35,265 nucleotides of DNA, taken from IMG/VR virus record IMGVR_UViG_3300042731_005775, positions 1 through 35,265 of that record. One strand, written 5' to 3'. Below, piece by piece: positions 6,011 to 7,849 of this stretch. A program made the translations under genes and the position numbers. The notes under the pieces were generated by a model. The model made no database searches and was not told the origin of the DNA. It worked only from the letters and a program-made list of their open reading frames with translations. Position 1 is the stretch's first letter, and each line of letters opens with the position of its first letter. Source of the DNA: a virus.

Positions 6011-6271
6011 CTATCCGGAGCCGTCACCGTCACTGGAGCCGGAGCCGGAGCTAGAGTCGGAGCCGAAGCCGAAACCGGAGCCGCAGCCGAAGCCAGCACC
6101 GGAGCCGACTCCGGCGCCTCGGCCGGAGCCGTAGCTGTCGCCGGAGCCAAAGCCATGGCCGACACCGGAGCCGAAGCCGGAGCCGTCGCCGGAGCCGTCG
6201 CCGGAGCCGGAACCGGCGCCGTCACCATCGCCGGAGCCGAAGCCGCGGCCGGAGGCGGAGGCGGTCATCAC
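6011..6271 (-). CDS. Gly-X repeat protein 7 (last of the array)
   Basis: This 86-residue ORF starts at GTG 6271, overlapping the stop of repeat gene 6. It begins [16 protein letters not shown] and continues as a Gly-X dipeptide repeat, with X mainly Ser, Asp, Phe and Ala, ending SSDGDGSG before a TAG stop. Unlike its upstream relatives it does not end in Asp-Ala-Leu, which fits its position as the end of the array. Codons are almost all GGC and xxC, the codon pattern of real genes in this genome. It ends 15 bases from operator O2a. No function is known. Confidence 0.6.
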
Positions 6272-6453
6272 GCATCACCGGAGCCGCGGCCGTCGCCGGA
6301 GCCGCGGCCATCGCCGAAGCCGTCGCCGAAGCCGGAACCGGAGCCAGAGCCGGAGCCGGAGCCGGAGCCGGCTCCGACGCCGGAGCCGGCTCCGAAGCCG
6401 TCGTCGAAGCCGTCGTCGAAGCCGTCGTCGAAGCCGTCGTCGAAGCCGGTCAC
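6268..6453 (-). CDS. Gly-X repeat protein 6
   Basis: This 61-residue ORF starts with GTG overlapping the previous stop (GTGA). It opens with four FDDG units ([19 protein letters not shown]), then GAGSG, a run of Gly-Ser, and GFGDG/GRGSG blocks, ending in GDA. The Phe-Asp-Asp-Gly tandem repeat is unique within the array. It has neither a signal peptide nor a hydrophobic segment. Confidence 0.6.
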
Positions 6454-6788
6454 AGGGCATCACCGCAGCCGAAGCCGTCACCATCGCCGAAGCCGTCACC
6501 GTCACCGTCACCGTCGCCGTAGCCGTCGCCGGAGCCGTCGCCGTAGCCGTCGCCGGAGCCGTCGCCGTAGCCGTCGCCGGAGACATCGCCGAAGCCGAAG
6601 CCGGAGCCGTCGCCGGAGCCGAAGCCGTAGCCGTCGCCGGAGCCGAGGCCGTAGCCGTCGCCGGATCCGGCGCCGAGACCGGCGCCGAAGCCGTCGCCGT
6701 CACCGTCGCCGTCACCGGAGCCGAAGCCGTAGCCGTAGCCGTCGCCGGAGCCGAAGCCGCGGCCGGAGCCGTCGTCGAAGCCGGTCAC
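6450..6788 (-). CDS. Gly-X repeat protein 5
   Basis: This 112-residue ORF starts [19 protein letters not shown], overlapping the previous stop by GTGA, and ends CGDAL. It is the richest in Asp and Tyr, with repeated GDGYG and GSGDGYGDG units. The same 4-base overlap and Asp-Ala-Leu ending occur in its neighbours, which indicates tandem duplication of a whole gene unit. It is expected to be disordered and acidic. Confidence 0.65.
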
Positions 6789-7003
6789 AGGGCATCACCG
6801 CAGCCGCAGCCGCGGCCGTCGCCGGAGCCGGAGCCGGAGCCGGAGCCGGAGCCGGAGCCGTCACCATCGCCGAAGCCGAAGCCGCGGCCGGAGCCGTCAC
6901 CGTCGCCGAAGCCGCGGCCGAAGCCGTCGCCGGAGCCGAAGCCGCGGCCGAAGCCGGAGCCGAAGCCGGCATCGGAGCCGGAGCCTGAGCCTGAGCCGGT
7001 CAC
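6785..7003 (-). CDS. Gly-X repeat protein 4
   Basis: This 72-residue ORF starts [19 protein letters not shown] with a GTGA overlap and ends GCGCGDAL. It contains Phe-rich blocks ([11 protein letters not shown]) and a Gly-Ser run. The two Cys near the C-terminus (GCGCG) recur as GCG in relatives 3 and 5. Confidence 0.65.
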
Positions 7004-7248
7004 AAGGCATCACGTCCACCGGTACCGGAGCCGCGGCCATCGCCGAAGCCGTCGCCGAAGCCGGAACCGAAGCCGTCGCCGGAGCCGCGGCCGTAGCCGT
7101 AGCCGTAGCCGTCGCCGTCGCCGAAGCCGGAGCCGGAGCCGAAGCCGCGGCCGAAGCCGGAGCCGAAGCCGTCGTCGAAACCGGCGCCGGAGCCGAAGCC
7201 GGAGCCGTCACCATCGCCGTAGCCGTCGCCGTCGCCGTAGCCGGTCAC
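7000..7248 (-). CDS. Gly-X repeat protein 3
   Basis: This 82-residue ORF starts [17 protein letters not shown], overlapping the upstream stop by GTGA, and ends GTGGRDAL. It carries Tyr-rich (GYGYGYG) and Phe-rich (GFGSGFGDG) blocks with scattered Arg. The aromatic residues are regularly spaced, as in sticker-and-spacer disordered proteins. Confidence 0.65.
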
Positions 7249-7493
7249 AGGGCATCACCGCAGCCGGAGCCGGAGCCGAAACCGCGGCCGTCGCCGAAGC
7301 CGAAGCCATCGCCGTCGCCGAAGCCGAAGCCGGTGCCGGAATCGTCGCCGAAACCGGAGCTGCGGCCGTCGCCGAAGCCATAGCCGAAGCCATCGCCGAA
7401 GCCGTCACCGTCGACGGCGCCGAAACTGGAGCCGTCGCCGGAGTCGAAGCCACGCCCGGAGCTCGCGCCTGAGCCGTCGCCGGAGCCGGTCAC
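7245..7493 (-). CDS. Gly-X repeat protein 2
   Basis: This 82-residue ORF starts at GTG 7493, overlapping the stop of gene 1; a second in-frame GTG at 7496 is also possible. It begins [16 protein letters not shown] and ends GCGDAL. The repeat is slightly less regular than in its relatives (GAVDG, DDSGTG), so it may be an older or less recently homogenised copy. Confidence 0.65.
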
Positions 7494-7849
7494 CACGCAT
7501 CACCGGAGCCGTAGCCGTCGCCGTCGACGGAGCCGGAGCCGGAGCCGAAGCCGGAACCGGAACCGGAGCTGTAGCTGAAGCCGTCGCCGGAGCCGAAACC
7601 GGAGACGGAGCTGGAGCCGCGGCCGTAGCCGTAGCCGTAGCCGTAGCCGGAGCCATCGCCGGAACCGGAGCCGAAGCCGGAACCGGAGCCGAAGCCGAGA
7701 CCGGAGCCGTAGCCGGAACCGGAGCCATGGCCGGAGCCGTCACCGTCACCGAGGCCGAAACCGGAGCCGTCGCCGAAGCCGAATCCGTCGCCGAGGCCGG
7801 AGCCGACGATGGCTCCGGCCTCGGCGACGGCCGTCAGTGCGCCGTCCAC
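7490..7849 (-). CDS. Gly-X repeat protein 1 (first of the array)
   Basis: This 119-residue ORF follows the DUF6948-type gene. The proposed GTG at 7849 overlaps the end of that gene by 16 bases. The first 16 residues (VDGALTAVAEAGAIVG) are not repetitive and form a possible short hydrophobic helix. From there the protein is Gly-X to the end, with GYGYGYGYG and Ser-rich parts (SSSVSG, SYSSGSG), ending GDAW. The start is uncertain because no clear ribosome site is visible; translation may depend on coupling to the upstream gene. Confidence 0.55.
   Translation of the reverse strand: MDGALTAVAEAGAIVGSGLGDGFGFGDGSGFGLGDGDGSGHGSGSGYGSGLGFGSGSGFGSGSGDGSGYGYGYGYGRGSSSVSGFGSGDGFSYSSGSGSGFGSGSGSVDGDGYGSGDAW

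Follow-up and report, generated by a model that had tools for sequence, protein, structure and literature searches.

A seven-gene array of Gly-X proteins as an extreme case of a DUF6948-linked phage gene unit

Introduction

Why would a phage carry seven tandem, overlapping genes for small proteins in which nearly every second residue is glycine? The question is raised by IMG/VR record IMGVR_UViG_3300042731_005775, a phage contig of 35,265 bases (hereafter the window, meaning this whole stretch of DNA) that encodes terminase, portal, capsid, tail-tube and tail tape genes on its minus strand. The alternating proteins are termed Gly-X proteins here, X being the residue between two glycines, and loci from other sequences carry labels beginning with L.

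The seven Gly-X genes of the window

Seven overlapping ORFs of 61 to 119 residues occupy positions 7849-6011 of the minus strand, confirming an earlier note on this DNA. They comprise gene 1 (7490-7849; 119 aa), whose GTG start falls inside Val-Trp codons of the preceding DUF6948 gene, gene 2 (7245-7496; 83 aa), gene 3 (7000-7248; 82 aa), gene 4 (6785-7003; 72 aa), gene 5 (6450-6788; 112 aa), gene 6 (6268-6453; 61 aa), and gene 7 (6011-6271; 86 aa), the last of the series. GTG serves as the start codon in 7 of 7 ORFs. Glycine fills 80-93% of alternate positions, and the longest Gly-X run per gene spans 28-64 residues, versus at most 12 in 300 base shuffles. Overall, the array is 43% Gly, 16% Ser, 14% Asp, 9% Phe, 3% Tyr, and 3.9% Ala, and it is richer in Phe than the Gly-X runs of its relatives, with some Arg. 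Rfam and tRNA scans of the window returned no match.

Most junctions are indeed the four-nucleotide GTGA overlap once proposed for all of them, but the first reads GTGGTGA and the last GTGATGA. An Asp-Ala(-Leu/-Trp) ending, which had likewise been described, is found in six of the seven genes; the seventh has neither a successor nor this junction ending. The ending is encoded by GGTGATGCNN (GGT GAT GCC CTG in the Asp-Ala-Leu form), directly 5' of the next start (GGTGATGCCCTGTGACC). Because these codons resemble a ribosome-binding site before the next start, and because the last gene lacks the ending, it is better explained by translation than by protein function, and the codons can be read as putative coupling sites for translation.

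Other features that had been attributed to the array call for amendment. Its codons do not match the genome, since C makes up 84% and G 2% of its third positions, whereas nine other genes have 45% and 39% there; this excess of C is the mark of an expanded hexamer (GGCNNC). The supposedly regular placement of aromatic residues is weak, with a gap z of -0.87 in the window, slightly more even than chance, and in 146 related sequences the spacing is nearly random (z -0.2; -0.23 over all loci). Finally, the genes at 6011-7849 are real but are not the complete unit, which begins upstream at a DUF6948 gene (8136-7837).

DUF6948, the first gene of the unit

The gene directly upstream of the array (7837-8136, minus strand; GTG start, 99 aa) encodes a clear member of PF22253 (E 3.8e-24; 85.1 bits against a Pfam cut-off of 27), the only family returned by a Pfam scan of the product and one listed there as DUF6948, without an assigned function. 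An AlphaFold2 model built on an alignment of 51 sequences (pLDDT 96.1) predicts a small barrel of the Sm/LSm type. The top 50 Foldseek matches of this model in the PDB are all Sm/LSm proteins, with weak E-values (best 3.8e-3), and VIA-align superimposes it on an archaeal Sm protein with a Z of 8.1 over 63 residues at 1.7 A, a Z near 8 being one that can also reflect a common arrangement. Since the Foldseek E-values are weak and such a Z borders on common small barrels, the Sm/LSm fold is no more than likely. Comparison of the DUF6948 profile with Hfq and LSM by hhalign found no sequence relationship (probability 0.7-10.5%), the alignments being partly in register with the Sm1 region, and no PDB chain related by sequence was found. 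Conserved residues of the family include Arg38 (or Lys, 96%), Lys64 (or Arg, 86%), Arg11 (69%), and Trp43 (aromatic in all), which would suit a surface binding nucleic acid or Gly-X.

Pairing of DUF6948 with Gly-X genes

The two genes have been found together from whichever side the search began. Gly-X loci were collected from viral contigs with a DNA pattern for Gly-[Ser/Tyr/Asp/Ala] repeats, which gave at least 120 stretches. Among the matches listed, 79 true Gly-X loci had 450 nt or more of sequence before them, and in 72 of these DUF6948 lay upstream on the same strand; four of the seven remaining loci carried a diverged relative recognized by a weak profile score and a shared pattern. Conversely, a DUF6948 search blind to the repeats gave 536 relatives in viral contigs, and in 76 of the 80 loci kept from these the next gene was Gly-X. 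The same order was seen in bacterial and archaeal genomes, taken one per species (37 of 38 loci with room). Over phage contigs and these genomes together, once near-identical sequences had been removed, Gly-X was the next gene in 82 of the 85 loci that had room for it. The genomes with the pair belong to Proteobacteria, Acidobacteria, Firmicutes, Bacteroidetes, Cyanobacteria, Verrucomicrobia, and others; several archaeal and candidate-phylum bins among them may be misbinned phage contigs. In one locus, L026, the two are fused in a single ORF, the only fusion found. DUF6948 and Gly-X thus form a conserved two-gene phage unit, of which the window array is an extreme case with the partner gene present seven-fold.

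Tandem Gly-X copies also occur elsewhere, with five in L047, four in L194, three in L140, and two in several others, and the seven of the window are the largest array among the loci listed. The N- and C-terminal flanks differ in each lineage, so amplification arose more than once. A portal search for relatives of the window phage gave one identical short contig and distant ones, with no DUF6948 in the fragments recovered, and the array junction, searched as a DNA pattern, found no match.

Genes around the pair are of early type (recombination, ERF, SSB, exonuclease, methyltransferase; several named by eye) rather than structural. This setting, together with the lack of any signal peptide evident by eye on the Gly-X proteins, leaves both an earlier suggestion of a role at the host surface and the idea of a role in the virion unsupported. 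Charge does not co-vary between DUF6948 and its Gly-X partner (rho 0.00, 156 pairs), and a simple charge match between the two is accordingly not seen.

Several loci depart from the basic layout. Gly-X stretches occur upstream of DUF6948, in addition to the downstream one, at L069:320-410, L103:4270-4430, and L128:4823-4920, and in L047 a gene at 1009-1659 for a PcfJ-like protein (PF14284, E 1.8e-10) separates DUF6948 from the array of five copies. Many contigs end in or just after the Gly-X repeat (e.g., L126, L127, L135, L152, L157, L163, L180, L198, L203, and others), as if assembly breaks there, and databases probably under-count the module as a result.

Translation and selection

In 77 of 113 loci, the overlap between the start of the Gly-X gene and the stop of DUF6948 is exactly 13 nt long, with the sequence GTATGG at the start site giving Val-Trp in the DUF6948 frame and an ATG in the Gly-X frame. 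Shine-Dalgarno-like bases precede the start in 76 of the 113. The GTG start of gene 1 in the window occupies the same alignment position as the start in those 77 loci, the overlap being 16 nt rather than 13 because DUF6948 has one extra codon there. In the L047 array, the same junction precedes each of the five copies, with GAGGAG a few bases 5' of the ATG; junctions resembling ribosome-binding sites stand before every copy both there and in the window.

The residues themselves are also constrained. If the first two bases of the X codon varied independently of each other, Ala would be expected at X 211 times in loci not chosen by repeat pattern, versus 11 observed, and 472 times in a larger set of 5473 X residues from 143 loci, versus 30 observed. 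The combined share of Ser, Tyr, and Asp at X stays at 86-96% across loci whose GC content ranges from 23 to 73%, although the wobble bases shift. A purely mutational origin of the X residues was considered and rejected, as the Ala depletion argues against it, and the choice of residue is, judging by these counts, under selection. The conserved start site, the junctions, the scarcity of Ala, and the constant composition across 23-73% GC together give good support to the view, already put forward in the earlier note, that the array encodes genuine Gly-X proteins of low complexity, each translated separately and containing aromatic residues.

Composition and domains of the Gly-X proteins

In 152 distinct runs, Ser accounts for 34% of X, Tyr for 32%, and Asp for 25%, and basic residues are almost absent; about 35% of X is aromatic across relatives. 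Runs are typically 42-101 residues long and range overall from about 20 to 140. The window proteins combine low complexity with aromatic residues, as do prion-like and condensate-forming domains, and self-association would be plausible from such a composition.

At least 16 Gly-X proteins end in a further domain of about 145 residues (FAHGxT ... WHHxLTGSCxxGR), which in L020 and L237 is carried by leucine-rich-repeat proteins instead. Examples of the domain are at L053:7000-7422, L016:5057-5476, L020:7611-7991, and L237:6528-6905. The model of this domain has a pLDDT of 93; its fold found no convincing match, the best (Z 6.3, to a calcium-binding protein) covering 67 residues of its helical half, and no family matched it. 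A second, short C-terminal motif resembles, by eye, the end of a pentapeptide-repeat protein.

Other features of the window

Just downstream of the array, two sigma-70-like promoters point left, TTGACA-17-AATAGT and TTGACG-17-CATAGT (4701-4760 and 5936-5995), each flanked by two copies of the palindrome-containing motif TTTCTTACGTAAG. This motif has eight strand-wise matches (four sites) versus 0.02 expected, and promoters and sites together look like a putative repressor regulon. Between them, on the minus strand, a domain of about 100 residues and no assigned family occurs twice in 5313-5912 and once in 5010-5303, at 34-46% identity.

A Mom-like DNA-modification protein is encoded at 3687-4136 on the minus strand (phrog_1384, E 4.6e-31; NCBIfam XF1762 family, E 1.7e-54), with a family 2 glycosyltransferase nearby (2164-3147). 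Since the group that Mom adds is derived from glycine, a functional link to the Gly-X proteins was considered; the idea was rejected, as a Mom-like gene is present in only 2 of 48 module-bearing phage records.

Comparison with known systems

FG- and prion-like domains consist of Gly/Ser spacers with aromatic residues, a likeness that extends to the phage proteins, but the latter keep a near-perfect dipeptide alternation in which the aromatics are spaced close to randomly along X. The silk fibroin heavy chain contains Ala-rich Gly-X blocks (Gly-Ala/Ser/Tyr) and shares with the phage proteins a long, strict alternation of Gly with Ser and Tyr. In contrast, the phage proteins are encoded by separate small genes, Asp is common in them, and they avoid Ala and lack the Gly-Ala-rich blocks of fibroin. 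The eukaryotic proteins SmD1, SmD3, and Lsm4 join an Sm fold, the one predicted for DUF6948, to a dipeptide-like glycine tail; their X is Arg and the tail basic, whereas X in the phage unit is Ser, Tyr, Asp, and Phe, acidic to neutral.

The closest tested parallel is the Hfq of Acinetobacter baumannii, in which an Sm fold is followed up by a long low-complexity stretch of glycine and aromatic residues and by an acidic part; its GGFGGQ repeats and acidic tip affect both RNA affinity and autoregulation (PMC11617691). In that protein the repeat belongs to Hfq itself and is built on a GGFGGQ unit, whereas the phage unit has a predicted fold and a separate, often multiplied gene with strict Gly-X alternation. 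With a separate tail gene and different X residues, the unit would at best work like this Hfq.

Scans of the Gly-X partner against Pfam, PHROG, and NCBIfam matched no meaningful model. Two GenBank records illustrate how the gene has fared in annotation: gene 25 of Chlorobiaceae phage CV-1-33 (L276:6295-6540) is annotated in the wrong frame, as Met-Ala repeats, and in Iodobacter phage phiPLPE (L277:1161-1406) the Gly-X gene is unannotated. A search of the open-access literature found no paper on DUF6948 or on phage Gly-X proteins, and the parts seen of a survey of low-complexity regions in phages (PMC6821194) do not mention the family. The earlier claim that no such array is known needs qualifying, as other phages carry arrays of three to five copies, but no paper on these was found either. 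DUF6948 itself is a named but uncharacterised family, and its pairing with Gly-X is described in none of the papers searched. Low-complexity genes are masked in searches, skipped by gene callers, or misframed, which makes such a partner easy to miss.

Proposed mechanism and alternatives

It is tempting to suggest that the small barrel of DUF6948 forms an oligomer or ring, and that RNA or single-stranded DNA is the ligand of this oligomer early in infection. Made from the same mRNA by coupled translation, the Gly-X proteins would serve as a low-complexity tail of DUF6948 in trans, acidic, rich in Tyr and Phe, and almost without basic residues. Such chains may attach to the oligomer by their Asp and aromatic side chains and then either gather it into a condensate or tune the speed of nucleic acid release, in the manner of the glycine-rich, acidic tail of Hfq, and added gene copies would raise both dose and chain number. 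This reading, in which the array is a seven-fold partner gene supplying tails in trans to an Sm-like oligomer on RNA or single-stranded DNA, is given a probability of roughly 40%. More doubtful is its extension to a ribonucleoprotein or single-stranded DNA condensate module that phages of hosts from many phyla would carry, with dose and valency set by chain length and copy number.

Alternatively, Gly-X could be an acidic mimic of nucleic acid, a decoy that occupies a host or defence protein, with DUF6948 as carrier and Gly-X as one exchangeable repeat module. The quarter of X that is acidic, with almost none basic, is consistent with mimicry, and exchange is suggested by the 145-residue domain, which is found on both Gly-X and leucine-rich-repeat proteins, and by the pentapeptide-like motif. 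Yet the acidic share of X spreads from 10 to 43% between loci, PADLOC has no match for either DUF6948 or the C-terminal domain, and the strict partnership with DUF6948 is left unexplained, making a decoy unlikely.

Less probable again is a silk-like structural or adhesive protein whose chains would stack as beta sheets and build a scaffold or coat. The strict alternation of Gly with Ser and Tyr, over runs of typical length, is the fibroin pattern, but Ala, which dominates X in fibroin, is almost missing here and Asp makes up a quarter of X; moreover, the proteins have neither a link to virion genes nor a signal peptide evident by eye.

Very little credence is given to the repeat acting as DNA or RNA, be it a slippage-prone locus or an RNA bound by DUF6948, with the proteins as by-products. 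Hexamer expansion clearly shapes the DNA, since almost every third position is C and Ser codons are almost always TCC/TCT rather than AGC or TCG. This idea does not account for a start conserved at one position inside DUF6948, for ribosome-binding junctions before every copy in L047 and the window, for amino acids that stay constant while the wobble bases of Gly differ between loci, or for the one in-frame fusion. Equally improbable is a plain solubility or spacing tail that aids folding or oligomerisation of DUF6948 and takes no part in condensation or nucleic acid binding: the strict coupling and the fusion would suit it, but a spacer is poorly served by separate genes in several copies, and it does not require so narrow a choice of residues (Tyr, Asp, Ser, no Ala).

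Conclusions

In a large set of phage contigs, Gly-X proteins are linked to a single protein family. Should DUF6948 be an Sm-like protein that binds nucleic acid, phages would use in split form the design of an Sm fold plus a glycine-rich tail that is known from RNA chaperones, and if the condensate reading is true, the Gly-X proteins would constitute a widespread and so far undescribed family of phage low-complexity proteins. Small cultured phages with the pair offer a direct test of how Gly-X acts in cells. Likewise, the natural arrays, with one to seven copies and runs spanning the full range of lengths, provide a ready series for the effects of chain number and chain length.
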